A stretch of 64,000 bases of DNA, taken from the NCBI GenBank assembly GCA_903907995.1, contig CAIVQH010000054.1, forward strand, positions 62,001-126,000, read 5' to 3'. Source of the stretch: an uncultured Verrucomicrobiota bacterium (lineage in GTDB: Bacteria; Verrucomicrobiota; Verrucomicrobiia; Limisphaerales; UBA9464). The notes below the pieces were generated by a model. It worked only from the letters and a program-made list of their open reading frames with translations, had not been told where the DNA came from and searched no databases. Position 1 is the stretch's first letter; each line of letters opens with the position of its first letter. A program made the position numbers and the translations under genes. Positions 22,521 through 35,757 of this stretch are shown one piece after another.

Positions 22521-24533
22521 CTACTTCAGCTCCCACTTCTCCCCAAAGAAACCGGCGGCCGCAATGCCACCGGGGGCGCGCGAGGTCACGGGCTTGGTGA
22601 TGTCGATCACTGCCCAGTCAGGGAGCTTCGGGGTCTGGCGGGCGTTGTTGAGGTAGTCGTATTCGCGGAAGGTGAAGCCGCTGTTCAGCACCACGTAGCG
22701 GGCCGGGTTGAGCGGGTTCGGGTAGATGAGCACGGGCACGGCCTCGCCGGCCGCGTAGGTCTTGCCGCCGACCACGAGGCCGGCGGCCGTCCACTTCACC
22801 GGGAGCTTGTCGGCGAGCTTCGCCAGGAGGGCGTTACTGGAGGGGTCGCCCCACAGGACAAGATTGTTCGCCGCGATGTCGGCCTCAGTCACGGCGCTGT
22901 CGTCCTTCACGCGGGCGTCGCCGCGGTACTCCCGCCGCCAGTGCTCGGTGGCGTGGCCCATCTCGGCGGTGACCCAGGCGCCGACGGTCGCATTGAGCGG
23001 CTGGCCGGTGGGGCGGACGAACAGGAACGCGTCCATGAACGCGTCATCAATCGGTCCCTGGAGGCCGTGGCGCTTCCGCAGACTGTCCTCGGGCAGCTTC
23101 TCAAAGCGCCAGGCCACCCCGCGCTTCACCAGGCTGGCGCTCCAGGAGCGGTCGGTCTGGGTGGTGACGGTGGTGACCTTTTCGCCGTTGATCTCGATGT
23201 TGACCGGCTGGAGCAGATCAAACGGGCTGAGCCCCGTCGGAATCGTCAGCGTGAGGGCCTCGACGTTGGTGGTGGTGATCTCGACGGCGTTGTCCTCGGG
23301 CACCAGCTTCGCCTCGACGCGGGCCGGTTCCCAGTGGTGACCAAGCGCATCCACCGTCACCCAGGCCATCTCGTTGTAGCGAAGCGAATGGGTGACGAAA
23401 CGAACCGTCTTCGGCAGCGGATCGCGGCCGTGTGCGACGAGCGCGTCAATGCGGCGGTTCAGCTCGGCCTTGGTGACCTTCTCGTAGCTGTGGCCGGTTT
23501 TGGGGCCGATCAGATGAGTGAGTTCCAGGCCTTCGGCGGCCATCGCCTTGGCCATGACGTCGGCGGCCTGCTTCTGGCCGTCGATGCCACCGCTATACGC
23601 GACGAGGGGGACCATGGAGGTATTAAGCGCGATGGTGGTGGAATCGTAGAGCCGCCAGAGCTGCTGCTCCCACGGGGCGGGCGTGAGTTTTTCGTTTTGG
23701 AAAACGTGCAGGAACTCCGCCGTCTCGCTGAAACCCGCGCCCGGCGCGGCGGCGGCCCAGCGGCTGGCGTAATGGGTGGTGAAGTGCCAGCACGCCGCCC
23801 CGCCGAGGGAGAAGCCGCGCACGACCAGTCGGTCGTCATCGATCTGGTAGTGCTTCTTCACGTCATCGAGGGCTTCCCAGAAATCGGTTTCGCCAGCAAA
23901 GCGCGAGCCGTTGCAGTAGCGACCGTAGAGGTGGAGCACGAAGGCATTGGGCGGCGTGAACTCACCGGGGCTCCGCATGCGATCGCTGAGGAAGGACAGT
24001 TCGCTCAGGGTTTCGCCGCGCCCGTGAAACCAGAAATCGAGGCGGAACTTCTGGGGTGAATCCGGTGACCAGGTCGGCGGCACCACCAGCCCATAAGGCT
24101 GCACGGAGCCATCGATGCGGGAGATGTAGCCGCGCACAACCAGCCCGCGCGCCTCGTTCCAGTGGGGCTTGCCCTCGCGGAGCGAGGCGATCCGGGCCTG
24201 CCCTTCCTTGAGCTGCGCGCGGGCGGCGGCGACCTCGTTGGTGCGGAAGATCTCGTCATAGCGCAGCGCCCAGTCCACCGCCTTGTGGAAGATCTGCACG
24301 TCGGGCAGCAGCGCCAGGCGGGCGGGCTTGTCGGCCAGTTCCTTGCGAAGCGTCTCAATGTCACTGCCCAGCTGCGCCACGCCGTCGGTCAGTTCCTTGC
24401 GGGCGTCGTCCGGGATGACGACGCCGGCCGGCGGAATACGGCGAACATTCTCGATCTGGTTATCTGCCGGGCCATCGGCCAGGGCGGCGGCAAAGGTGGC
24501 GAGCAGGGCGAGGGCAGTCAGGCGTGCGTGCAT
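22521..24533 (-). CDS. Secreted alpha/beta hydrolase (esterase/peptidase S9-like)
   Basis: 670 residues with a signal peptide (LTALALLATFAAALADG). After a helical N-terminal region (about 30-140) comes a hydrolase domain: YGLVVPPTWSPD, LDFWFHGRGETLSELSF (oxyanion loop), and nucleophile elbow VVRGFSLGGAACWHF with Ser in GFSLGG. PLVAYSGGIDGQKQAADVM and LIGPKTGHSYEKVTK give the likely Asp and His. The C-terminal 250 residues are beta-rich, perhaps for binding. It may be a carbohydrate esterase or a polymer hydrolase. Its neighbours do not narrow the substrate. Confidence 0.8.
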   Translation of the reverse strand: MHARLTALALLATFAAALADGPADNQIENVRRIPPAGVVIPDDARKELTDGVAQLGSDIETLRKELADKPARLALLPDVQIFHKAVDWALRYDEIFRTNEVAAARAQLKEGQARIASLREGKPHWNEARGLVVRGYISRIDGSVQPYGLVVPPTWSPDSPQKFRLDFWFHGRGETLSELSFLSDRMRSPGEFTPPNAFVLHLYGRYCNGSRFAGETDFWEALDDVKKHYQIDDDRLVVRGFSLGGAACWHFTTHYASRWAAAAPGAGFSETAEFLHVFQNEKLTPAPWEQQLWRLYDSTTIALNTSMVPLVAYSGGIDGQKQAADVMAKAMAAEGLELTHLIGPKTGHSYEKVTKAELNRRIDALVAHGRDPLPKTVRFVTHSLRYNEMAWVTVDALGHHWEPARVEAKLVPEDNAVEITTTNVEALTLTIPTGLSPFDLLQPVNIEINGEKVTTVTTQTDRSWSASLVKRGVAWRFEKLPEDSLRKRHGLQGPIDDAFMDAFLFVRPTGQPLNATVGAWVTAEMGHATEHWRREYRGDARVKDDSAVTEADIAANNLVLWGDPSSNALLAKLADKLPVKWTAAGLVVGGKTYAAGEAVPVLIYPNPLNPARYVVLNSGFTFREYDYLNNARQTPKLPDWAVIDITKPVTSRAPGGIAAAGFFGEKWELK

Positions 24534-24697: not shown

Positions 24698-25450
24698 TCA
24701 GCTCCCCGGAAAACTGCTCGTGCGGGGCGGCTGAGGGGAGGCTTCCTGCATCAGGTCCACCAGACCACGGTGGGTGATGAACCAGAAAATACCTCCGGCC
24801 AGCGTGCAACCCACCGCCGCGAGCGACAGGCACATGGGGCCGAAATGATGGTTGGCCAACGCCCCGATCCACCCACCCACGCCGAACGCCAGCACCAGCG
24901 TGAGCAGGAAGCGCAGCTTCCACCACTCGATCTGCCGGTGCCGCACCCAATGCCCCAGCATCACCCCGATATCGGTCATCGTCCCGGTCACGTGGGTGGT
25001 GCGGATGATGAGGCCGCAGTAGCTGCTGCCGGTGCCGTTCTGAAGACCGCAGGCCATGGCCACGGCCGCAAGGCCCAGCCGCTGTTTGGTGATCAGCAAA
25101 AAGGTCGCGAGCGCCAGCAGCGCGCCTTCCACCATCAGGGCGACTCCGTAACGGCGGTTCGGGATGAGCTGCCAGGCTCCGACAATGATTCCGGCCAGGG
25201 CCGCCCCCGCCAGGAATCCCAGCACGATGCTCAAGGAGGCCCAGGCATCGCTCCAGAGCCCCTGCGCCAGATCGATGCCGAGATGGGAAACGGCCCCGGT
25301 CATGTGGCTGACCGGCGTGAGGAAAAAACCGAGCCCGACCGAGTTGACGTAGCCGGCGGTGCCCGCGAAGGCTGCCGCCCCGGGCAGCAAATGCCGTATT
25401 TTGCGGTAAGCCTCACGGCGATCAACCGGTTGCGGATGGGAATAGGGCAT
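24698..25450 (-). CDS. DUF1275 (YoaK-like) membrane protein
   Basis: 250 residues with about six membrane helices. Signature stretches: AGYVNSVGLGFFLTPVSHMT (usually GYxDAxxF...TGHMTG), CGLQNGTGSSYCGLIIRTTH and VTGTMTDIGVMLG. DUF1275 proteins are inner-membrane proteins of unknown function, often listed as putative transporters. The C-terminal tail is short and hydrophilic. The gene is divergent from the response regulator gene at 25621 across 170 bp. Confidence 0.88.
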   Translation of the reverse strand: MPYSHPQPVDRREAYRKIRHLLPGAAAFAGTAGYVNSVGLGFFLTPVSHMTGAVSHLGIDLAQGLWSDAWASLSIVLGFLAGAALAGIIVGAWQLIPNRRYGVALMVEGALLALATFLLITKQRLGLAAVAMACGLQNGTGSSYCGLIIRTTHVTGTMTDIGVMLGHWVRHRQIEWWKLRFLLTLVLAFGVGGWIGALANHHFGPMCLSLAAVGCTLAGGIFWFITHRGLVDLMQEASPQPPRTSSFPGS

Positions 25451-25620: not shown

Positions 25621-26298
25621 ATGCGTATCCTGATTGCCGAAGACGAAGCCAAGGTGGCCCAGCACATAGCAGCGGGGCTCCGGGCCGAGGGCTATGCGGT
25701 AGATATCGCCGCCGATGGCGAAGAAGCCCTCTGGCTGGCCGAGAACAACCCCTTCGACGTGATCGTGTGCGACGTGATGATGCCCGGCAAAGACGGCTTC
25801 ACCGTCGTGCGGCACCTGCGGCGCAAGCAGATCACCACCCCGGTGATCTTCGTCTCCGCGCGCGGCGAGATCGAGGACCGGGTGCGTGGGCTCGACGCCG
25901 GCGCGGATGACTATCTCGTAAAACCCTTCTCGTTCGCCGAGCTCCTGGCGCGCGTCCGGGCGGTGCTGCGCCGACAGCGACCGCAGGCCATCAATGTGAT
26001 CCGCGTGGCCGACCTTGAGTTGGACCTGGTCACGCATCGCGCCCGGCGCGGCGGCGAGGAGATCGAGCTGACCAATCGCGAATTCGCCCTGCTGGAGTTC
26101 CTCATGACCAACTCGCCCCGCCCCGTGAGCAAGACGGCCATCGTCGAACACGTCTGGGACCAGCACTTCGACTCGGAGACGAACGTGGTGAACGTCTATG
26201 TAAACTATCTCCGCAAGAAGATCGACCGGCCCGAGTGGAAGCCGCTGGTGCAGACGATGCGCGGGGTCGGGTTTGCGCTGCGGGAGGAGCCGGCATGA
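25621..26298 (+). CDS. OmpR/PhoB-family response regulator
   Basis: 225 residues. The receiver domain is 1-120 with the acidic pocket AEDEA, phospho-acceptor D51 (IVCDVMMPGKDG), T/S in FVSARGE and the lysine in DYLVKPFSFAE. The winged-helix DNA-binding domain (about 130-222) has ELTNREFALLEFLMT and NVVNVYVNYLRKKIDRPEW. It resembles CusR/QseB-type regulators. The stop overlaps the start of the kinase gene by 4 bp (ATGA). The DUF3570/DUF4266 cluster begins downstream on the same strand, so it is the natural candidate for the cluster's regulator. Confidence 0.95.
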   Translation: MRILIAEDEAKVAQHIAAGLRAEGYAVDIAADGEEALWLAENNPFDVIVCDVMMPGKDGFTVVRHLRRKQITTPVIFVSARGEIEDRVRGLDAGADDYLVKPFSFAELLARVRAVLRRQRPQAINVIRVADLELDLVTHRARRGGEEIELTNREFALLEFLMTNSPRPVSKTAIVEHVWDQHFDSETNVVNVYVNYLRKKIDRPEWKPLVQTMRGVGFALREEPA

Positions 26299-27404
26299 GG
26301 TCGTTGCAGGTCCGGCTGACCCTGTGGTTCGCGGTGAGCTTTGTCTCCGTGGCCGCCGTGTTCGCCGGCCTGACCTATCATCACATCGAGCAGCAGCTGA
26401 GCCGGACCGCGTTTGAGCGGGAGCAGAACCTTAACCGCGACTGGGTCATCCGCGGCAGTGTGAGCGAGCAGGAGATCGACCAGATCATGACCACGATCGT
26501 GGGCAGCTCGCTGAAGTTCGTGCTGCCGCTCGTGTTCGCGCTGCTGCTGCTGGGCTACTGGCTCGCCCGCAAATCGCTGGTGCCGCTGGAAACGCTCAAC
26601 CGCCAGCTCGCCTCCGTCGGCCCGCGCAATCTCAGCCTGCGCGTCGGGCTGCCGGCCGCCGACAGCCAGTTTCGCGACCTCACCCAGCGCCTCAACGAGA
26701 TGCTGGGGCGCCTGGAACGGTCGTTCGGCGAGATGGGCGAATACGCCGCCAAAGTCGCGCACGAGCTGCGCACCCCGCTCACCATCCTGCGCCTCAAGGT
26801 GGAGCAGTCCGAGGGCCGCATCGCGCCGGACCTAGCCGAGGAGCTCCAGTCGGAACTGCACCGGCTGACGCATGTCGTCGAGCAGTCGCTGCTCATCGCC
26901 AAGGCCGAGCAGGGCCGCCTGACGGTCAGTGTGTCCCGGCTCGATCTGGCCGAAGTCGCCCGGGAGGTTGTGGAGGATTTCCGGCTGCTCGCGGAGGACG
27001 AAGGCCGTTCGCTGCGTCTGGAGGCCGGCCGGGAATGCTGGGCGCAGGCCGATCCGCGGTACGCGCGCCAGGCCTTGCATGCCTTGCTGACCAACGCGCT
27101 CGTACACGGCCAGGGAGAAATCGTGGTGCGGGTGCGTGGGCGCGGCGGTCGGGCGGGCCGGGCTGCCCAGGCCGGCCTGCTGCTGGCCAACGCCGTCCGC
27201 CGCGGACCCCGCCGGGGCGAGGCCAATCTCGGCCTGGGACTGCGGGTCGTGCGCGCCCTGGTCAGCCTGCAGCCGGGCAGCAGCCTGCGGCAGCACGCCG
27301 GCAGCCATTGGCATGCCTCACGGATCGAATGGCCGGCGACCACCCCGCCAGAAGCCGTCGCCCACAAGGCCACTGCGGGAAATGCGGGGCTCTTCCAAAT
27401 CTGA
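26295..27404 (+). CDS. Sensor histidine kinase with atypical ATPase domain
   Basis: 369 residues. Two N-terminal helices (about 8-27 and 74-92) flank a short periplasmic region of only about 45 residues. A HAMP-like segment follows, then the H-box AKVAHELRTPLTIL with H156. The CA domain is reduced: an N-box-like LLTNALVHG is present and a G2-like LGLGLRVVRAL is present, but I see no DxGxG (G1) box between them; instead there is an Arg/Gly-rich stretch. Start ATG 26295 has a good ribosome site (GGGAGGAG) and overlaps the regulator stop. Partner of the preceding regulator. Confidence 0.88.
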   Translation: MRSLQVRLTLWFAVSFVSVAAVFAGLTYHHIEQQLSRTAFEREQNLNRDWVIRGSVSEQEIDQIMTTIVGSSLKFVLPLVFALLLLGYWLARKSLVPLETLNRQLASVGPRNLSLRVGLPAADSQFRDLTQRLNEMLGRLERSFGEMGEYAAKVAHELRTPLTILRLKVEQSEGRIAPDLAEELQSELHRLTHVVEQSLLIAKAEQGRLTVSVSRLDLAEVAREVVEDFRLLAEDEGRSLRLEAGRECWAQADPRYARQALHALLTNALVHGQGEIVVRVRGRGGRAGRAAQAGLLLANAVRRGPRRGEANLGLGLRVVRALVSLQPGSSLRQHAGSHWHASRIEWPATTPPEAVAHKATAGNAGLFQI

Positions 27405-27541
27405 CCGGCTAAGGATTTTCTAACGGTTTGGCCCTCCGCCTTCTAAACCCTGTCCGCTAGTGGTTGGTTGTCACACGCGGCGTGACCGATGGAAGTTCAT
27501 AGGGCATCGGTGACGACGTGGACACTATGGGCGCAAACCTG
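27405..27541 (+). promoter_or_regulatory. Leader of the DUF3570/DUF4266 cluster with CTAA direct repeats
   Basis: CTAAG at 27409 and CTAAC at 27420 are spaced by 11 bp, one helical turn, the typical arrangement for OmpR/PhoB-type regulators binding as tandem dimers. Further on, TGTCACACGCGGCGTGACC near 27470-27488 is a short inverted repeat. Neither is proven; location directly after the two-component genes and before the cluster makes them good candidates. Confidence 0.4.
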
Positions 27542-28819
27542 ATGAAACAGTTTCGTGGGGAAAAGTGTGGAAATAGGGCCGCATTTACCCCTGCCGGGCC
27601 TCTCACGTGCCTGCTGGCGTTGCTGTTCCGCTGCGTGCAGCCGGCACGGGCGGAGGATACCGTCGCTTATCGGTACGAGGATTATCAGGAGGAGGCGGGC
27701 CGGGTGCGCGTCCACACGCAGACGGCCTATTTCGAGACCGACCTGAACCCGCGCGTCGCCGTAAAGGGCGAATTCGTGTACGATGCCATCTCCGGCGCGA
27801 CCCCGACCGGAGCGCCGGCCCCGGCCGGTGGCAACCAGGTGCCGCTCGTGGACCTCAAGGACACGCGCTATTCCGGCAACCTCAGCAGCGATCTCAAATG
27901 GGGCCGCACGACCACCACCCCGGGCTTCGCGTACAGCACCGAAAGCGACTACCAGTCGGTGGGCCTCTCGCTGAACGAGGCGATCGATTTCAACTCCCGC
28001 AACACCACCCTGAACCTCGGGGTGTCGCACAATTTTGACCACGTCAGCGGCTTCTTTCAGCCGGAGTTGCAGCGCAAGGACTCGACCGATTTCCTGGTCG
28101 GGGTGAACCAGCTGCTCGGGCCGCACACCTATGTCACGGCCAATCTGACGCTGGGCTATTCGGACGGTTATCTGACCGACCCTTACAAGGGGGCCACCTT
28201 CCTCTTCAACTACCCGGTCAGCTTCTACAATCCACCCGATTCGTTCACGGTCCCGGAGCAGCGGCCGGACCACAAGTTCCGGCAGGTCGCCCTCTTCGGC
28301 ATCACCCAGTACATCGACCCGCTGAATGCCAGCATCGAAGCCAGCTACCGCTTCCACCACGACAGCTGGGGGATCTTCTCGCACACCGTGGAGCTGTCGT
28401 GGCACCAGAAGCTGGGCAAGAAGCTGATGATCTCGCCGCTCTTCCGTTTCTACAACCAGTCGGCGGCCTCGTTCTACGCGCCCTCCTTTGTGGGTGATCC
28501 GGCCTTCCCCAACGGGGCGATCGGCTCGGTTCAGAGTGACGGGGCCAGCATCGTGTTCAACGATGACCCGAGCTTTCCGGGCACAGGCACCAGCACCTTC
28601 GCGGTGCCGGCGCATCCCACCTATTTCTCCGCCGATTACCGGCTTTCCCAGCTCAACTCCTTCACCTATGGCGTGACCGCCTCGTGGCGGGTGCATGAGC
28701 ACTTCAGCCTGGAAGCGGGCTACAAACGCTACGAGATGCACGGTCTCGATGGCATCACCTCCGCGAGCGCCTATCCCAAGGCGCACATCTTCACCGTGGG
28801 CTTTGGTTTATGGTTCTAA
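27542..28819 (+). CDS. DUF3570 outer-membrane protein, copy 1
   Basis: 425 residues from ATG 27542 (an ATG at 27527 is also in frame). A signal peptide ends near CVQPARAED. The rest is beta-strand rich and ends in aromatic GFGLWF, as in outer-membrane barrels. Motifs shared with copy 2 at 30860 include DAISGATPTGAP, TDPYKG, YRFHHDSWGIFSHT, QSAASFYAPSFVGDP, YFSADYRLS and YKRYEM. DUF3570 has no assigned function. Members sit beside TlpA-like thioredoxins and DUF4266 lipoproteins, as here. The downstream gene starts inside its last codons. Confidence 0.88.
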   Translation: MKQFRGEKCGNRAAFTPAGPLTCLLALLFRCVQPARAEDTVAYRYEDYQEEAGRVRVHTQTAYFETDLNPRVAVKGEFVYDAISGATPTGAPAPAGGNQVPLVDLKDTRYSGNLSSDLKWGRTTTTPGFAYSTESDYQSVGLSLNEAIDFNSRNTTLNLGVSHNFDHVSGFFQPELQRKDSTDFLVGVNQLLGPHTYVTANLTLGYSDGYLTDPYKGATFLFNYPVSFYNPPDSFTVPEQRPDHKFRQVALFGITQYIDPLNASIEASYRFHHDSWGIFSHTVELSWHQKLGKKLMISPLFRFYNQSAASFYAPSFVGDPAFPNGAIGSVQSDGASIVFNDDPSFPGTGTSTFAVPAHPTYFSADYRLSQLNSFTYGVTASWRVHEHFSLEAGYKRYEMHGLDGITSASAYPKAHIFTVGFGLWF

Positions 28820-29331
28820 ATTCACTGGCAACCCTGCCCCGCCGGATGGCGACGGCCCTGGCCACCTTCGCCGCCCTCCTCGGCACCATGGCCGCGCTGG
28901 CCGGGACACCGAAGGCGGGCGAGGCGTTCCCCAATCTGGCCGACTACAGCCTCGAAGGCGCCGTACCCGATCTGGCCGGCAAGGTGGTGATCGTGGACTT
29001 CTGGGCCTCCTGGTGTGGCCCCTGCAAGGAATCGTTCCCGACCTTCAAGGAACTGCAGGAGAAATATGGCAGCCAGGGGCTGGTCGTCGTCGCCATCAGC
29101 GTGGATGAGGACAAAGGGGCCATGGACATGTTCCTCAAGAAGCACCCGGTCCCCTTTGCCGTGATGCGCGACGCCAAGCAGAAGCTGGCCGAGCGGCTCG
29201 ACCTGCCCACCGTGCCGGTGACCTTCATCCTGGATCGCACCGGCAAGATCCACCAGATGCACAAGAGCTACGAGGGCGACAGCACCCGCAAGGAGTTTAT
29301 CGCCATCGTGGAAAAACTGCTCAAGCCCTAG
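28810..29331 (+). CDS. TlpA/ResA-like thioredoxin, copy 1
   Basis: 173 residues. Signal or anchor at 1-31 (RRMATALATFAALLGTMAAL). Thioredoxin fold with VVIVDFWASWCGPCKESFPT, active-site C69 and C72, then FAVMRDAKQKLAERLDLPTV, cis-Pro in VPVTFILDRTGKI. Such proteins reduce disulfides or transfer electrons to specific partners in the periplasm, for example in cytochrome c or metal-centre assembly. ATG 28810 overlaps the DUF3570 stop by 10 bp; the same junction is found in copy 2, which supports this start. The next gene, DUF4266, starts 4 bp after its stop. Confidence 0.92.
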   Translation: MVLNSLATLPRRMATALATFAALLGTMAALAGTPKAGEAFPNLADYSLEGAVPDLAGKVVIVDFWASWCGPCKESFPTFKELQEKYGSQGLVVVAISVDEDKGAMDMFLKKHPVPFAVMRDAKQKLAERLDLPTVPVTFILDRTGKIHQMHKSYEGDSTRKEFIAIVEKLLKP

Positions 29332-29335
29332 CGCC

Positions 29336-29551
29336 ATGAAAACCCGCCTGTTCCTTCTCTGCCTCGTGGCCGCCCCGTTGCTGACCGGCTGCCAGAACGT
29401 GAAGCCGTGGCAGCGCGCCATGCTGGCCGATCCCGTGATGCGGGCCGACCGCGATCCCGCCGGCCAGGCCCTGGCCGAGCACGTCTATTTCAGCCGTGAG
29501 GCCGCCAGCGGCGGCCGGGGCGTGGGCGGCGGCGGGTGCGGCTGCAACTGA
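29336..29551 (+). CDS. DUF4266 small lipoprotein, copy 1
   Basis: 71 residues. Lipobox LLTGC (lipidated C19), then VKPWQRAMLADPVMRADRDP, YFSREAASGGRG and the C-terminal VGGGGCGCN. The second copy at 32622 has the same length, the same PWQR and SREA motifs and an identical last nine residues. The DUF4266 family is defined by this layout; its function is unknown. The CxC pair at the extreme C-terminus suggests metal binding, a redox role or modification. It follows a thioredoxin gene by 4 bp. Confidence 0.92.
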   Translation: MKTRLFLLCLVAAPLLTGCQNVKPWQRAMLADPVMRADRDPAGQALAEHVYFSREAASGGRGVGGGGCGCN

Positions 29552-29597
29552 GTTTTAGCGCAGTTCGTTCCGATGCAAATCCGATCCATCTGAAAAA

Positions 29598-30806
29598 ATG
29601 CACTCCCGTCTGTCGCGCTTGCCTGCGCTGTTCCTGTCCGCGTTCCTCCAACTGGCCCCGCTCCTGCGGGTGGCCTCGACCGAAGCCACCGCGGTCGCCT
29701 CCCCGCTGGTGGCCGTATTGCGCTGGCTCGCCGGCGCGACGGCGGTGGCCGGCAGTTTTCACGCCGTTTCCGCCGCCACCGGCCTGACTTTCACCGGTGC
29801 CAATACCGGCACCAACGGGGTAGTCTTCGCCGGCGCCCGGGCATCCATCGTCAGCGGACGTTACGGCGCCGCGCTGTCGTACAGGGCCACCGCCCTGCCC
29901 CCGGGAATCACCCTCAGCAACCAGGGAGCCTTCAGCGGCAGGCCGACCAAGTCCGGCATCTACAAGACCATTGTCACCGGTATTGGGGGAGGCGGCGAAT
30001 ACACTGCCCCCGCCATCACTTTCACCATATTCGATCCCCCACCCGTGGCGCCTGTCATCACGCAACCGCCCGCTCCCCTGACCGTGACGGAGGGTCAGCC
30101 CGCCAGCTTTTCCGTGACCGCGACGGGCACTCCGGCCCCCACCTTCCAGTGGCTGTTCAAAAATGCTCCGATCCAGGGGGCCATCAGCGCGCAGTTCCAG
30201 ATCGCCAAGACCACGCTGGGCAGCGATGGGAATTACGCTGTCATTGCGTTGAATTCCGCCGGCTCCGTGACCAGCGCGCCCGTTGCCTTGACCATCATTC
30301 CCGCCGCGAAGCCGGTGGCGATCACCAATCAGCCGCTCGGTCTCACCGTGAAAGAGGGTGGCACCGCCGCGTTCAACGTCGGCGTAACGGGCACCGCCCC
30401 CATCACGTACCAGTGGACATTCAATACCGCGACGCTGCTCAACGAGACCAATGCAACGCTGACCCTCAGCAATGTGTCCACCAATCAGGCCGGCACTTAT
30501 CAGGTCAGGGTGGCCAACTCCGTCACCAATCTCCTGAGCGACGCCGTCACGCTCACGGTGACACCGCGCCCGGTGGTGGGGCCATTCGGTCTGGGCCAGC
30601 CCGGCGTGCAGGCGGGCCTGCTCAGCTTTTCTTTCCCGGTCGTGGCGGGTGTGGCTTACGAGGTTGAGTATCGTGACTCGCTGGGGTTGGCCAACTGGTC
30701 CGTGCTGACAAACGTGGCGCCCCCCGCTGCGGCCGGGACTGCGACTGTCACCGACACGGTGGGTGCCGGGCCACGGTTCTACCACGTCACCGCGACGCCC
30801 CAGTAA
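29598..30806 (+). CDS. Exported Ig-like repeat protein of the DUF3570 cluster, copy 1
   Basis: 402 residues. A signal-like segment (LPALFLSAFLQLAPLLRVAS) is followed by a second hydrophobic stretch with VAVLRWLAGATAVAGSFHAV, a motif also found in copy 2 at 33949. Then a putative Ig domain (LSYRATALPPGITLSNQGAF, GRPTKSGIYKTIVTG) and two Ig-like domains (PPAPLTVTEGQPASFSVTAT and QPLGLTVKEGGTAAFNVGVT, each ending in GxYxVxxxNSxG-type strands). The C-terminal part is a SPxF-like domain. It is probably cell-surface or periplasmic. Gap to DUF4266 is 46 bp. Confidence 0.82.
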   Translation: MHSRLSRLPALFLSAFLQLAPLLRVASTEATAVASPLVAVLRWLAGATAVAGSFHAVSAATGLTFTGANTGTNGVVFAGARASIVSGRYGAALSYRATALPPGITLSNQGAFSGRPTKSGIYKTIVTGIGGGGEYTAPAITFTIFDPPPVAPVITQPPAPLTVTEGQPASFSVTATGTPAPTFQWLFKNAPIQGAISAQFQIAKTTLGSDGNYAVIALNSAGSVTSAPVALTIIPAAKPVAITNQPLGLTVKEGGTAAFNVGVTGTAPITYQWTFNTATLLNETNATLTLSNVSTNQAGTYQVRVANSVTNLLSDAVTLTVTPRPVVGPFGLGQPGVQAGLLSFSFPVVAGVAYEVEYRDSLGLANWSVLTNVAPPAAAGTATVTDTVGAGPRFYHVTATPQ

Positions 30807-30859
30807 TTCCGGCCTAGCCAGTCGGCGGAAGCGGGGGCAAGCTCCCACTTAAGCACGAC

Positions 30860-32041
30860 GTGAACCGCTCCGCCCTCCAGTTCAAAGGCTTCCGCCCGCC
30901 GGCACGCCCGCCGGCGCTGGCCAGCCTGCTCGGTGTCTGGCTGGCGCTGGCGGGAGTGCTCCGGCTGCGCGCGGAGAACCACGCCGATTACAAATACGAG
31001 TTCTACCATGAGGACGGAGATCGTACCCACGTCGCCACGCAGACGGTGCTGGCCGAGGCCGACCTGGCCGAATGGCTTCACGCCAAGGCCGATTTCGTTT
31101 ACGACAGCATCTCCGGCGCGACGCCCACCGGCGCTCCGCCACCGGCCGGAAGCACCGAGGTTCCTACCAAGGACCTTTACGACACCCGCACGGCCGGCCA
31201 CCTGGAGCTCGGTTTCATCCAGGGCCGCCACACGATTACGCCCTCCATCGCCTACAGCACCGAGCACGATTACGAATCCATCACGCCCGGTTTGCACTAC
31301 TCCGTCGATTTCAACCGCCGGAACACCACCCTGCTCTTCGGCATTTCGCATAATTTCGACCGCGTCACCGGCGACTTCCTCGGCACCCAGTGGCGCTCCA
31401 AGGCGAGCACGGATTTCGTCCTCGGTGTCACGCAGGTGCTCTCGCCCACGACCCTGATCTCGGCGAACCTCTCCTTCGGCACGGCTTCCGGGTACCTCTC
31501 AGACCCCTACAAAGGGGTGCGTTTCGACGGATATCCCGATCCGGACACGCTGTTCGGCGACCGGCGGCCTGGGCATCGCACCAAGCAGGTGGTGCAGGTG
31601 ACGCTCAACCAGTTCTTCGAGCCTCTGAACGGCAGTGCCGAGACGGACTACCGGTTCTACCACGATTCATTCGGCATTTTCAGCCACACCGCCACGCTGA
31701 CGTGGCTGCAAAATGTCGGCCGTCGCGTGGTGGTTGCCCCCATCGTGCGCTATTACCGCCAGTCGGCGGCCCGTTTCTATGCGCCGAGGTTTGCCGGCGA
31801 TCCGTCCTTCCCGCAGGCGTTTCCGGATGTGGTGATTCCGCAGTTCTACTCGGCCGACTACCGGCTGAGCGAGCTGCACACGTGGACGCTGGGCGTGAGC
31901 GTGACGACCAAGGTGACCCGCTGGCTGTCGCTCGATATGGCCTACAAGCGCTACGAAATGTTCGGCGATGACAAGGTGACTGCCGCGAGTAACTTTCCCC
32001 AGGCTGACATCTATACCCTGGGAATCCGCGCATGGTTCTGA
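30860..32041 (+). CDS. DUF3570 outer-membrane protein, copy 2
   Basis: 393 residues from GTG 30860 (no ATG fits). Signal peptide LLGVWLALAGVLRLRAEN. The barrel motifs follow copy 1 closely: DSISGATPTGAPPPAGS, SDPYKGVRF, YRFYHDSFGIFSHTATL, QSAARFYAPRFAGDPSFP, FYSADYRLSELHTWTLGV, YKRYEMFGDDKVT and a C-terminal IRAWF. It is about 32 residues shorter, mostly from a loop missing before YSADYR. It begins 53 bp after the first Ig-like gene. Tandem duplication, rather than independent acquisition, is likely given the identical gene order downstream. Confidence 0.88.
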   Translation: MNRSALQFKGFRPPARPPALASLLGVWLALAGVLRLRAENHADYKYEFYHEDGDRTHVATQTVLAEADLAEWLHAKADFVYDSISGATPTGAPPPAGSTEVPTKDLYDTRTAGHLELGFIQGRHTITPSIAYSTEHDYESITPGLHYSVDFNRRNTTLLFGISHNFDRVTGDFLGTQWRSKASTDFVLGVTQVLSPTTLISANLSFGTASGYLSDPYKGVRFDGYPDPDTLFGDRRPGHRTKQVVQVTLNQFFEPLNGSAETDYRFYHDSFGIFSHTATLTWLQNVGRRVVVAPIVRYYRQSAARFYAPRFAGDPSFPQAFPDVVIPQFYSADYRLSELHTWTLGVSVTTKVTRWLSLDMAYKRYEMFGDDKVTAASNFPQADIYTLGIRAWF

Positions 32042-32625
32042 ACCGGTCATCTGACCTCCTGGCCCGCCCACTGGACCGCCGCACGGCATTGGCTGTGCTG
32101 GCCGGCCTGTGGTGCCTGCCCTTGACCGCACAGATCGGTTCGGACACGGCAGCCGACACAACCGGCGGCGCAGTGGAACTCAAACCCGGGGATCCATTTC
32201 CCGACCTCACCCAGTTTCCCCTGGAAGGCAAGCTGCCCGAGGATCTGAAGGGACAGGTTCGGGTGGTGGATTTCTGGGCCTCCTGGTGCGCCCCCTGCAA
32301 GGACACCTTCCCCGCCATGGAGGAGCTGTACGTGCGCTTCCAAAAGCAGGGACTCGTGATCCTCGCCATCAACGTGGACAAAAGCCGGACGGCGATGACG
32401 GAATTCCTCAAGGATCACCCGGTGACCTTCACGGTGCTGCGTGACAGCCGGAAGGAACTCGTCTCCAAACTCCGCCTGCCCTCGCTTCCCAGCACCTTCA
32501 TCCTCGACCGCGAGGGCCGCGTTCACTCCGCCTGCAAGGGGTTCCGCAACGCCGAAAGCCGTCGCAAGGCGGTGAAAGAGATCGAGGAGTTGCTGAAGGC
32601 TCCCAGCCCGGCCGCCAAGCCATGA
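32032..32625 (+). CDS. TlpA/ResA-like thioredoxin, copy 2
   Basis: 197 residues. N-terminal signal (DRRTALAVLAGLWCLPLTAQ). The active site is VVDFWASWCAPCKDTFPAME with C86 and C89; WCAPC replaces WCGPC of copy 1. Then LAINVDKSRTAMTEFLKDHP, FTVLRDSRKELVSKLRLPSL and cis-Pro in LPSTFILDREGRV. ATG 32032 lies within the last codons of the DUF3570 gene, the same overlap as in copy 1. The stop overlaps the DUF4266 start by 4 bp. Same proposed role: specific periplasmic reductant or electron donor. Confidence 0.92.
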   Translation: MVLNRSSDLLARPLDRRTALAVLAGLWCLPLTAQIGSDTAADTTGGAVELKPGDPFPDLTQFPLEGKLPEDLKGQVRVVDFWASWCAPCKDTFPAMEELYVRFQKQGLVILAINVDKSRTAMTEFLKDHPVTFTVLRDSRKELVSKLRLPSLPSTFILDREGRVHSACKGFRNAESRRKAVKEIEELLKAPSPAAKP

Positions 32626-32837
32626 AATCCTTCACCCGCATTCTCCTTCTGGTGGGTCCGCTGCTGCTGGCGGGCTGCGCCGGCGTCGAACCCTGGCAGC
32701 GGGAAAACCTCGCCAGCTATGTGATGAGGCCGGACCGCGACCCTGCCGCCACCCGGCTCGGGGACCACATGTGGACCTCCCGCGAGGCCGCCAACGGCGG
32801 TGGCCGCGTGGGTGGCGGGGGCTGTGGCTGCAACTGA
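32622..32837 (+). CDS. DUF4266 small lipoprotein, copy 2
   Basis: 71 residues. Lipobox LLAGC, then VEPWQRENLASYVMRPDRDP, TSREAANGGGR and C-terminal VGGGGCGCN. Compared with copy 1, the middle has diverged (HMWTSREA versus HVYFSREA) while the C-terminal nine residues are unchanged, which points to selection on the tail. It overlaps the TlpA stop by 4 bp and is followed after 8 bp by the DsbD-like gene. Confidence 0.92.
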   Translation: MKSFTRILLLVGPLLLAGCAGVEPWQRENLASYVMRPDRDPAATRLGDHMWTSREAANGGGRVGGGGCGCN

Positions 32838-32845
32838 TTCCGCGC

Positions 32846-33949
32846 ATGCTCCGCCGGCTCCCATTTATGCTGCTCGCGCTGCTGGGATTGCTCGCCAGCT
32901 GGGCAGTCCATGCCGGCGGTCTGAGCCCGTTCCGGGTCCTGCCTTCGCTGGTCACCAACGGCAACGGTTGGGAGCTGTCGGTGGGATTCGATTTTCCGCC
33001 CCGTTGCTATCTCTATGCCGACCGGCTGGCCTTCAGCATCGAAGGTTTGCCGGGTTCCCCGGATTTCCAGCTGCCCCCGCCTTCCCCACCCGGCGGAGGG
33101 GAGCAGCAGCCCCAGTTCCGGCAAAAGTTCACCGCGTTGAGCTGTCAGACTGGCCGCCCGCCTGCCTCCGTGGTGCTGGCGGTGTATCTGCACGGCTGCG
33201 ACCCGGACAACTGCTACTTCCCCGAAGTGCGGCGCTTCCGGCTTTCACCGGATTTCGCCGCGCTGGAACTGCCACCCGATCTCGTCGCCCCGGGACCGCC
33301 CGAACCCGCCCGTTGGCGGTTGCTGGCGGACGGCTTCAACGTGCTGACCCGCAATGGTTTCACCGATGAGCAGGATTTTCTGCGCTTTCTCCACGAGGCG
33401 GGTGTGGCCACCGCGCGGCCGGCCCACGCCGCAGTTCCCTGGTGGCTCGTCGGCGGCATTGCGGCGGCGACTGTAAGCTGGACTGCCTTGGGCCGCGGCA
33501 AAACCCGATGGAGGTCGGCAGCCCTGATCTTGGTGGCCCTGATCGCTGTCGGTGTTCCGGCGTCTCGGCGTTCGTCCGGCGACGAAGGAGGCGTTGGCCG
33601 CCCGGTCGTGTTGAATCTTGGCGCCAATAGCATGGCCGAGGACGATCTGGCGGACTTGCTGAGCCAGGCGTTGCACGATGGTGCCCCCGTGATGCTTGCC
33701 CTACAGCCTACGGCCGCTGACCCGTCCTTAGCAAAACCGGATGTATTCCCTCGCACGCGCGGCAATCTGGGCGGAGTGCAGCAGGTTCGCCTGCAGCTCC
33801 CGGACACTGCGGATCCCCGGGCCCGGGAGCTTTGCCAGTATTTTGCCATCTCCCGCCCGCCGGTCTTTGCGCTGCTCATACCGCGCAATCATTCCCGACC
33901 GAGTATGGCCCTGAACTTGCACGCGACTGAGCAGTGCGCCGTCCCGTGA
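32846..33949 (+). CDS. DsbD-alpha-like protein with two membrane helices and a degenerate thioredoxin-like end
   Basis: 367 residues. Signal LLALLGLLASWAVHA. Residues 30-145 resemble the N-terminal domain of DsbD: WELSVGFDFPPRCYLYADRL and YLHGCDPDNCYFPEVRRF, where the two Cys of GCDPDNCY match the DsbD alpha pair. Next is a linker, then two helices (WWLVGGIAAATVSWTAL and ALILVALIAVGVPAS). The C-terminal domain has a thioredoxin-like layout with a cis-Pro-like ISRPPVFALLIP but no CxxC. DsbD normally has eight helices; those are missing. It is found only in the second copy of the cluster. Confidence 0.72.
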   Translation: MLRRLPFMLLALLGLLASWAVHAGGLSPFRVLPSLVTNGNGWELSVGFDFPPRCYLYADRLAFSIEGLPGSPDFQLPPPSPPGGGEQQPQFRQKFTALSCQTGRPPASVVLAVYLHGCDPDNCYFPEVRRFRLSPDFAALELPPDLVAPGPPEPARWRLLADGFNVLTRNGFTDEQDFLRFLHEAGVATARPAHAAVPWWLVGGIAAATVSWTALGRGKTRWRSAALILVALIAVGVPASRRSSGDEGGVGRPVVLNLGANSMAEDDLADLLSQALHDGAPVMLALQPTAADPSLAKPDVFPRTRGNLGGVQQVRLQLPDTADPRARELCQYFAISRPPVFALLIPRNHSRPSMALNLHATEQCAVP

Positions 33950-34953
33950 TGAAACGCCACCGCCTAGCCTCGCTCGCGCTGGCAGCCGTGCTGCCGTGGC
34001 TGCCCTTGGTACGCTGCCTGGCTCCGGTGGCCACGGCGTCAGGGGCCCCATGGGCCGTCGTACTGCGTTGGGCTGCAGGCATCGCGGCGCTCGCGGGAAG
34101 CTGCCACACCCTTTCGGCTGCCTCCGCCACCCTGAGCGGACTGACCCGCTATGCGAACAACCAGCCCAGTGGGAATCCTACCAATGTCGCCAGCGGGCGC
34201 GTGGGTGTCCCTTTCACCTGGCGCGTTACGGTCAAGGATGCGGGCGTCAATCCCGAGTCCTCTTTTTATGACTGCCGCCCCCTGCCGCCCGGTTTGACTA
34301 TCAACACCAATGCGGGAGCGACCGGCATGATCACCGGCACCCCGACCACAAGCGGCACGTTCCCGGTAACGTTGGTCGCAGGTAACACCCTTTTCATCAC
34401 GCCTGCCACCGCTCCGAACCCCACGCCAATTACCAGCAGCGCCACGATCGTCATCGCGCCGCCACCCCAGCCGCCCACAATCTGGTCACCACCCGCTCCC
34501 CTTGCAGTGGTCACCGGGGCCAGCGCCCTGCTGGATGTGAGCGCCGAAGGGGCCGCCCCGCTCCGTTTCCAATGGCTCCATGACGGCAGTGCGCTGTCCG
34601 GGGCCACCAATGCCACGTTGGAATTCGCCCGCGTCGACTCCACCAACACCGGCAGCTATTCCGTAAAGGTAAGCAATGCCGATGGCACGGTCACCAGCCC
34701 GGCAGCCACCCTGACCGTCCTGGACCCGGCCGTGGTCCAGCTGCGGCTGACGCGCATCACGCCGCTGACCAACAGCTCCCTCTGTACCATCACGGGTCCG
34801 ACCAACTTGGTTTGCATCGTCTGGTTCAGCTCAAACCTGTCGGACTGGTTGCCGATTGCCACCAATCAGCTGACCAACGGCATCCTGAGCGATCATTTTG
34901 CCCATCCCAAGTCGCCCGTCAGCGGCTACTATCGGGTCTCGAATCAGCCTTAA
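33949..34953 (+). CDS. Exported Ig-like repeat protein of the DUF3570 cluster, copy 2
   Basis: 334 residues. Signal LASLALAAVLPWLPLVRCLA, then the second hydrophobic motif PWAVVLRWAAGIAALAGSCH, shared with copy 1 at 29598. Then a putative Ig domain (FTWRVTVKDAG, LPPGLTINTNAGATGMITGT), one Ig-like domain (PPAPLAVVTGASALLDVSAE, NTGSYSVKVSNADGTVTSPA) and a C-terminal region like the SxDLxxW sequences common in secreted proteins of this phylum (WFSSNLSDWLPIATN). ATG overlaps the preceding stop by one base. It is the last gene of the cluster; the truncated pyk follows after 111 bp. Confidence 0.82.
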   Translation: MKRHRLASLALAAVLPWLPLVRCLAPVATASGAPWAVVLRWAAGIAALAGSCHTLSAASATLSGLTRYANNQPSGNPTNVASGRVGVPFTWRVTVKDAGVNPESSFYDCRPLPPGLTINTNAGATGMITGTPTTSGTFPVTLVAGNTLFITPATAPNPTPITSSATIVIAPPPQPPTIWSPPAPLAVVTGASALLDVSAEGAAPLRFQWLHDGSALSGATNATLEFARVDSTNTGSYSVKVSNADGTVTSPAATLTVLDPAVVQLRLTRITPLTNSSLCTITGPTNLVCIVWFSSNLSDWLPIATNQLTNGILSDHFAHPKSPVSGYYRVSNQP

Positions 34954-35064
34954 GCAATCGCGGTTTGCGGCCGCTAAGTACTTCGCAATTAGACGATTCT
35001 AACGAGGTGCGCAGCCTGCAATCCGTTTCGAATTCAGACGCAAGTCATTCTGCGGCAATGAATA

Positions 35065-35757
35065 ATGCTGGCCCGCGGCGACCTGGGCATTGAATGCCCC
35101 TACGAGGAGCTGCCCATCATCCAGCGCCGCATCGTCAAGAAGTGCCAGGAACTGGGGCGGCCGGTCATTGTCGCCACCCATCTGCTGGAGAGCATGATCA
35201 ACAACCCGATGCCGACGCGGGCCGAGATCACGGACGTGGCCAACGCAACCTTCGAGCAGGCCGACGCCATCATGCTCAGCGGCGAGACCACCGTCGGAAA
35301 GTACCCGCTGCAGTGCCTGGAGGTGTTCGACACCGTCACCCGCCGCATCGAGCGCAGCGGCGGCGCACAATACCACGCTCTCGCCGAACTGACCTCGCCC
35401 CGGCAGAAGCTGGTGAAGAGCGCCGTCTTGCTGGCCGACGAACTGAAGGCTGCCGCCATCCTCGTCTTTACCCGGCGCGGCCATATGGCGCGCTACGTGT
35501 CGTGGCTGCGACCGCGCTATTCCCCGATCTACGCCTTTGCCGACCGCTGGACCATGGCCGACACACTGACGCTCTGCCGCGGAGTGATTCCCGGCGTCGT
35601 CGAGTTTCACCACGACAGCCCGGAACGCACCGTGGACAACGCGCTCCGGCAGCTGCTGGGAAACGGCCGGCTGAAGCGTGGCGACACCGTCGTCGTGCTG
35701 AGCAACGTCACCGCCGGCGACCAGGTCGTGGACGCCGTAAAGATGCGGGTGCTCTGA
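35065..35757 (+). pseudogene. pyk: Pyruvate kinase, C-terminal half only
   Basis: 230 residues that begin exactly at the active-site motif MLARGDLGIECPYEELPIIQ and continue through RPVIVATHLLESMINNPMPT, ANATFEQADAIMLSGETTVG and the C-terminal allosteric domain (LVKSAVLLADELKAAAILVF, GDTVVVLSNV). A full enzyme has about 470 residues; the first about 240, with the substrate and nucleotide sites, are missing. A TGA lies 6 bases upstream in frame and only 111 bp separate it from the Ig-like gene, so there is no room for the rest. I infer a rearrangement breakpoint at about 35060. A shorter protein could still be made, but not an active kinase. Confidence 0.88.

Follow-up and report, generated by a model that had tools for sequence, protein, structure and literature searches.

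This locus raises two questions: whether a gene order found twice in a row reflects one gene set copied in place or two sets of different origin, and what such a locus could do. It lies in a 64,000 bp window (the whole stretch of DNA that was analysed) from an uncultured Verrucomicrobiota bacterium of the order Limisphaerales (UBA9464; GenBank assembly GCA_903907995.1, contig CAIVQH010000054.1, positions 62,001 to 126,000). The cluster spans 25621-34953. Behind a response regulator and a kinase it encodes two sets of a DUF3570 protein, a TlpA-type thioredoxin, a DUF4266 lipoprotein and an immunoglobulin-like (Ig) domain protein, set A at 27542-30806 and set B at 30860-34953. An earlier note on this DNA described the repeated order on the plus strand, the overlaps and the regulator and kinase in front, all of which were seen again here. 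It took the repeat to be the same set twice and missed an extra gene of set B, 32846-33949, which encodes a DsbD alpha domain and is placed after DUF4266-B and before Ig-B. Judged by their sequences, sets A and B are two anciently diverged types of DUF3570 operon, with the type-1 set inside the type-2 operon. Probably they are two flavin electron-transfer modules with separate ancestries, one nested in the other, that work as proposed below. The features are as follows.

25621-26298, plus strand, OmpR-type response regulator, 81% identity to the regulator of the G692 type-2 operon
26295-27404, plus strand, sensor histidine kinase with a short periplasmic loop, 57% identity to the kinase of the G670 type-2 operon
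27542-28819, plus strand, DUF3570-A, predicted 16-strand outer-membrane barrel of the type-1 clade (Pfam PF12094, 3.7e-70)
27791-27802, plus strand, flavinylation motif Ser84-Gly-Ala-Thr87 of DUF3570-A (SGAT match)
28810-29331, plus strand, thioredoxin A, TlpA/ResA-like, WCGPC, AhpC-TSA/Redoxin type
29336-29551, plus strand, DUF4266-A lipoprotein with tail GGGGCGCN (ends CGCN; Pfam 4.6e-23)
29598-30806, plus strand, Ig-domain protein A, two Ig domains
30860-32041, plus strand, DUF3570-B, GTG start, type-2 clade (Pfam PF12094, 3.1e-66)
31112-31123, plus strand, flavinylation motif Ser85-Gly-Ala-Thr88 of DUF3570-B (SGAT match)
32032-32625, plus strand, thioredoxin B, TlpA/ResA-like, WCAPC, AhpC-TSA/Redoxin type
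32622-32837, plus strand, DUF4266-B lipoprotein with tail GGGGCGCN (ends CGCN; Pfam 8.2e-19)
32846-33949, plus strand, reduced DsbD: signal peptide, alpha domain with Cys118-X4-Cys123, one or two membrane helices, thioredoxin-like remnant without CXXC
33934-34953, plus strand, Ig-domain protein B, one Ig domain

Five junctions overlap by 4-16 bp: regulator/kinase, both DUF3570/TlpA junctions, and TlpA/DUF4266 and DsbD-like/Ig in set B. The remaining intergenic gaps are 4-53 bp, with 137 bp between the kinase and DUF3570-A. A promoter and terminator scan predicted no promoter-like sites in the cluster and three terminator-like sites compared to 6.7 expected by chance, none of them usable.

Distribution of DUF3570 operons

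DUF3570 is not the unassigned family that the note took it for. In 2021 the DUF3570 protein of Chlorobium luteolum was reported to be flavinylated by ApbE at two sites (Meheust et al., eLife, PMC8238504). There the protein was modified although mostly found in the cell pellet, the clusters contain ApbE, DUF3570, a thioredoxin-like protein and DUF4266, some with DsbD, and the function of the system is left uncertain. Section 5 of a 2024 paper on the structural context of flavinylation covers FMN-bind, NqrB/RnfD, DUF2271, Flavodoxin_4 and FMN reductase, not DUF3570 (PMC11334425). Within the open-access literature searched, DUF3570 or DUF4266 was named in PMC8238504 alone.

Sampling of the phylum found DUF3570 in 42/387 genomes, that of the order in 115/320. 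Loci were fetched for all 42 matching phylum genomes and, from the order, for 7/7 further genomes of the same genus, 38/40 of the same family and seven other new genomes. They held 110 DUF3570 frames. Three that are fragments of a single gene (L073) and a short, weak one (L084) were left out, and 106 were kept for analysis. Gene content was scored by family profiles, which replaced longest open reading frame (ORF) calling, noisy with antisense ORFs. Context was counted within about 4 kb in the 87 DUF3570 loci with at least 3.5 kb of downstream sequence. ApbE was downstream in at least 68, TlpA in 78, DUF4266 in 80, Ig in 66 and a DsbD-type gene in 10. The ApbE count is a lower bound, as L154 has ApbE in a merged frame and L173_11552 has it on the other side; about ten of the 31 DUF3570s scored as not adjacent to ApbE do have a same-strand ApbE within the stretch. 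The linkage of DUF3570, TlpA and DUF4266 is far beyond chance. The note had described these families as linked to each other and to ApbE, with ApbE missing here, and the counts agree with it. The fullest operons (e.g., L259 and L261) comprise regulator, kinase, DUF3570, ApbE, TlpA, DUF4266 and DsbD.

Other arrangements were seen. G169 and G181, of the same class, have two DUF3570-ApbE-TlpA-DUF4266 operons about 10-13 kb apart with DUF3570s of different clades and the kinase pair between or behind (L049-L051). In a divergent DUF3570 subfamily (L070, L075, L079, L082, and L083) DUF4266 precedes DUF3570 and the motif is of SSAS type.

Ancestry of the two sets

DUF3570-A and DUF3570-B share 47% identity. 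In a tree of 60 DUF3570s the set A protein grouped with the single-copy type-1 genes of the genus (8 rows, 100/99; 10 rows, 99/98) and the set B protein with the type-2 genes of G670, G691, G692, and G452 (6 rows, 98/95). Constraining A and B to one clade lowered the log-likelihood by 124.6 (p-AU, approximately unbiased test, 8.6e-6). The TlpA tree was split in the same way. G659 and G661 have set A by itself at the locus, with neither kinase pair nor set B; it adjoins counterparts of the window genes upstream of the cluster (22521-24533 and 24698-25450, 71-77% identical).

A recent tandem duplication of one set, the reading of the earlier note, would account for the gene order repeated back to back. 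It is rejected by the separate clades, the constraint test and the occurrence of set A alone, and the extra gene of set B has full-length counterparts in other lineages; a duplication is thus extremely improbable. The note had treated the two copies as paralogues, and the absence of an A+B clade from the trees goes part of the way to refuting that.

The kinase pair belongs with set B by sequence and occurrence, despite its position before set A. Among eight genomes of the genus (one just 54% complete) the type-2 kinase was present in G000 and G660 only, which are also the two genomes with a second DUF3570. The assignment rests on identity and occurrence because the regulator and kinase trees hold long unrelated rows and the regulator tree has few supported forks. 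The note had called the regulator and kinase the cluster's own and had described an envelope redox cluster linked to a two-component system. The components and the linkage were found; the pair's allegiance differs from what its position suggests. The kinase has a HisKA domain (3.6e-09, above cut-off), with HAMP and HATPase under the Pfam cut-off. Its ATPase domain lacks the DxGxG box, as do those of its relatives; a GLGLRVV motif is kept in 14/14 aligned sequences, two with variation.

As set A stands alone in G659 and G661 and the kinase pair and set B occur together, the type-2 operon has come to flank set A on both sides. A misassembly at the junction of sets A and B was ruled out by its continuity in the separately assembled G660 (contig C90, L209; 7.7 kb at 93.6%). 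The junction of kinase and set A is colinear in G660 over two contigs that both break here, and so is supported but not spanned. Between kinase and set A these contigs (the 11-kb end of L304 and the start of L122; window 27409-27413) run out in sequence that is absent from the window and has 18-base inverted ends, apparently an insertion element.

The predicted DUF3570 barrel and its flavinylation motif

The presumed acceptor of flavin mononucleotide (FMN) is Ser or Thr in 106/106 DUF3570s, and 95/106 keep the central Gly-Ala. FMN is presumably carried on the last residue of the motif, as in NqrC. An AlphaFold2 model of DUF3570-A from 65 sequences had 16 long strands, with a mean predicted local distance difference test score (pLDDT) of 91.6 and a predicted template modelling score (pTM) of 0.83. 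Its fold matches in the PDB were outer-membrane barrels (BcsC, FadL, OmpG, AlgE, and others) with TM-scores of about 0.3-0.5, which indicate the general fold only. No solved structure matched DUF3570 by sequence at E up to 1.

In the model turns of 2-4 residues follow the even strands and loops of up to 64 the odd strands, and the C-terminal residue is Phe. From this we infer an orientation in which strand 3 carries motif residues 84-87 at its outward end. Columns conserved at 90% or above were more frequent in the outward strand third than in the inward third (26/79 compared to 5/76; 65 rows). Because these 65 rows had been found by patterns including the motif, the test was repeated with 101 rows not chosen by motif (22/79 outward and 6/76 inward, p 0.0015). 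It was also repeated with the motif stretches removed (17/69 and 6/76, p 0.007; 18/69 and 8/76 at a looser threshold, p 0.018). Taken with the model, this points to DUF3570 as a barrel of the outer membrane that bears the flavin motif on its predicted outward rim.

ApbE in trans

ApbE is absent from both sets of the cluster. The objection that without ApbE there can be no flavin was rejected by a genome search and an ApbE tree. The note had proposed looking for ApbE elsewhere in the genome, and the search returned three genes (C38, C37, and C57). That of C38 lies in an ApbE-TlpA-Ig arrangement, with a third TlpA and Ig and with neither DUF3570 nor DUF4266. It groups in the tree with the operon ApbEs of the same genus and is thus the ortholog of the operon's own ApbE. 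The operon-type clade has 90 rows and a support of 92. Five ApbEs from operons or close to them fall outside it; four belong to the divergent DUF3570 subfamily and the fifth to G283.

An ApbE of the operon-type clade was present elsewhere in 9/9 examined genomes without ApbE in any DUF3570 cluster found (G000, G283, G654, G655, G656, G659, G660, G661, and G666). The locus in G660 is arranged as in C38; G659 and G661 have ApbE-Ig, and G654, G655, G656, and G666 have ApbE-TlpA. In G375, G670, G691, and G692 ApbE is carried by a second DUF3570 cluster. The simplest history would be an operon that was duplicated and then split over two loci by complementary loss, which fits the double set of TlpA and Ig. 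No FMN_bind protein, the sole alternative substrate family searched for, was found in the genome.

The note had also suggested metal handling. On that reading TlpA would keep the metal-binding cysteines of DUF4266 reduced, DUF3570 would transport the metal and the kinase would sense it. Among NCBIfam models the kinase matches best the heavy-metal sensor subfamily cztS/silS/copS, at 144.6 bits and so below the cut-off of 292.55, and a VIT1 iron transporter is listed in 25 clusters in the published study (PMC8238504). The kinase's short periplasmic loop has no Cys or His cluster, and metal handling leaves unaccounted for both the invariant flavinylation motif and the presence of ApbE in most operons or, where it is missing there, at another place in the examined genomes. 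Metal handling is unlikely.

The reduced DsbD of set B

The extra gene of set B encodes a reduced DsbD. Its DsbD_N match (PF11412) is 0.00092 with 19.7 bits, under the cut-off of 25. A fold search of the PDB gave DsbD N-terminal domains for all of its 18 top matches (E from 6e-07), and Cys118 and Cys123 align with the alpha pair of 12 complete DsbDs. Those 12, from DUF3570 operons of other lineages, all have the alpha CX4C, two membrane Cys and the gamma CXXC. No match to the membrane domain PF02683 was found in the window; one or two helices stand in place of the eight-helix domain. The gamma CXXC is absent from 32846-33949 and from the G660 copy. The structure model (pLDDT 71.7, pTM 0.43) is good for the alpha domain only.

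In the family to which the window belongs, all type-2 DsbD copies are altered. Those of G000 and G660 have the alpha domain, helices and a gamma remnant without CXXC. That of G670 has the same parts, with the first Cys of the CXXC replaced by Ser. The G691 copy is the alpha domain alone (190 aa), and none was recognised in G692. Between G000 and G660 the ratio of nonsynonymous to synonymous substitution rates (dN/dS) is 0.08 in the alpha domain (16 synonymous and 4 other changes) and 0.77 in the gamma remnant (6.7 and 14.3; Fisher p 0.004 on rounded counts). This is suggestive of a constrained alpha domain and a drifting gamma remnant, in one species pair with few synonymous changes in the remnant. 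The sole complete DsbD_TM gene found in the genome is in C31.

The losses could mark a decaying relic, an operon on its way out that has lost ApbE from both sets and the membrane and gamma Cys of DsbD, its working half; the ratio in the gamma remnant would fit. Decay is nevertheless highly improbable, as two species have kept the reading frames open and sets A and B both retain the FMN motif. In the comparison of G000 with G660, dN/dS is 0.03-0.21 for the remaining eight cluster genes and 0.29 for the reduced DsbD as a whole, with its alpha domain lower still.

Proposed mechanism

In the flavin electron-transfer modules that we favor, the kinase pair would switch on sets A and B, and DUF3570-A and -B would be exported to the outer membrane. 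During export the ApbE of the C38 locus would attach FMN to Thr87 (A) and Thr88 (B), a reaction modeled on the published Chlorobium case. Attachment would precede membrane insertion, with ApbE acting on the inner side. The barrel would then hold the flavin at its outward rim, as the model and the conservation suggest. Electrons would pass from the TlpA-type thioredoxins to the Cys-X-Cys tail of DUF4266, on to the surface flavin and finally to an acceptor outside the cell. The note's proposal that the thioredoxin keeps the lipoprotein cysteines reduced fits this scheme; it left out the covalent flavin, the likelier destination of the electrons. In other lineages a complete operon DsbD could supply the electrons. 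Because the DsbD of set B keeps its alpha domain only, here they must come from elsewhere, most simply from the complete DsbD of C31. Tethered to the membrane, the lone alpha domain may act as a thiol relay towards TlpA-B or DUF4266-B.

Electrons might also flow inward, with the surface flavin oxidising an extracellular substrate and the periplasmic thiols carrying electrons in. The absence of an electron-exporting DsbD from both sets would agree with this, and the literature searched gives no measured direction for any DUF3570 system. In relatives, though, the same slot holds a complete DsbD (12/12 aligned with all Cys pairs), of a family that moves electrons outward from the cytoplasm, and we consider inward flow very unlikely.

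A bolder version of outward flow makes set B an envelope-only thiol-flavin relay. Its DsbD, rebuilt as a tethered alpha domain, would have ceased to take electrons from the cytoplasm directly. They would arrive second-hand from the complete DsbD or from the set A thioredoxin and be passed to a flavin exposed on the outer face of the barrel. The Gly-rich Cys-X-Cys tail of DUF4266 would thread the barrel as a moving contact, and a single ApbE at a separate locus would serve the whole genome. As a whole this version is rather doubtful. If true, electrons would cross the outer membrane by a route that needs no haem.

Several points weigh against the two flavin modules as proposed. DUF3570-A and -B have one exact [S/T]GA[S/T] match each compared to two in the published DUF3570s; most aligned relatives likewise have one exact motif or none. 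The published thioredoxin family is PF13899 (PMC8238504), to which thioredoxin A is a weak match and thioredoxin B falls below threshold. The orientation of the barrel is deduced from the parity of its strands, the shortness of its inner turns and its terminal Phe rather than from coordinates. The scheme would put the flavin on the far side of the outer membrane from its donors in the periplasm, so that electrons would have to get past the barrel. The C38 ApbE could serve another substrate, and the duplication of the type-1 operon has weak support in the TlpA tree (85/47). A kinase lies directly upstream in 10 of the 90 DUF3570 loci with enough upstream sequence, by a strict rule that misses some.

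The kind of system is already known; the nested arrangement with ApbE in trans and a reduced DsbD is new. The locus bears on three questions about DUF3570: the position of the flavin, the electron feeder and the need for ApbE in the operon. Split operons predict that ApbE works in trans. A natural DsbD that has lost its membrane wire and kept a constrained alpha domain would separate electron entry from the rest of the relay. The locus is also a warning that a repeated gene order need not mean duplication.

Ig-domain proteins and flanking sequence

The four Ig proteins of the genome (29598-30806, 33934-34953, L039 7307-8590, and L294 5105-6319) start alike and unusually: the signal peptide is followed by another hydrophobic segment, which contains a Leu-Arg-Trp motif. 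The C31 copy has neither ApbE nor TlpA adjoining it. The size of the Ig protein varies widely among relatives.

Just behind the cluster a pyruvate kinase gene (35065-35757), the sole pyruvate kinase match in the genome, lacks its first half. In G660 an intact pyruvate kinase gene follows the same cluster at a distance of about 10 kb; the window lacks exactly that 10 kb, with the jump at 35062/35065. Going by the alignment, this jump would be either a true deletion or an assembly misjoin.

Comparison with known systems

DsbD has an alpha-membrane-gamma architecture. The protein of 32846-33949 resembles it in its signal peptide, its alpha Cys pair (CX4C in all aligned forms) and its thioredoxin-like C-terminal remnant. 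It differs in having neither the eight-helix domain with its two Cys nor the gamma CXXC, and is unable to move electrons through the membrane by the known route.

The barrel as a possible electron outlet resembles the outer-membrane electron conduits of the Mtr type. One chain of an Mtr complex was match 40 among the PDB fold matches of DUF3570-A. The barrel is unrelated to Mtr by sequence, and the cluster has flavin and thiols instead of haem proteins.

The closest comparison is with the clusters described in PMC8238504. Unlike those, the present cluster has no ApbE, two diverged nested modules, a DsbD cut to its alpha domain, one motif rather than two, a two-component pair in front and a thioredoxin of the AhpC-TSA/Redoxin type. 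It shares with them a DUF3570 with a flavinylation motif, a thioredoxin-like protein and a DUF4266 with a C-terminal Cys-X-Cys, all in one operon.

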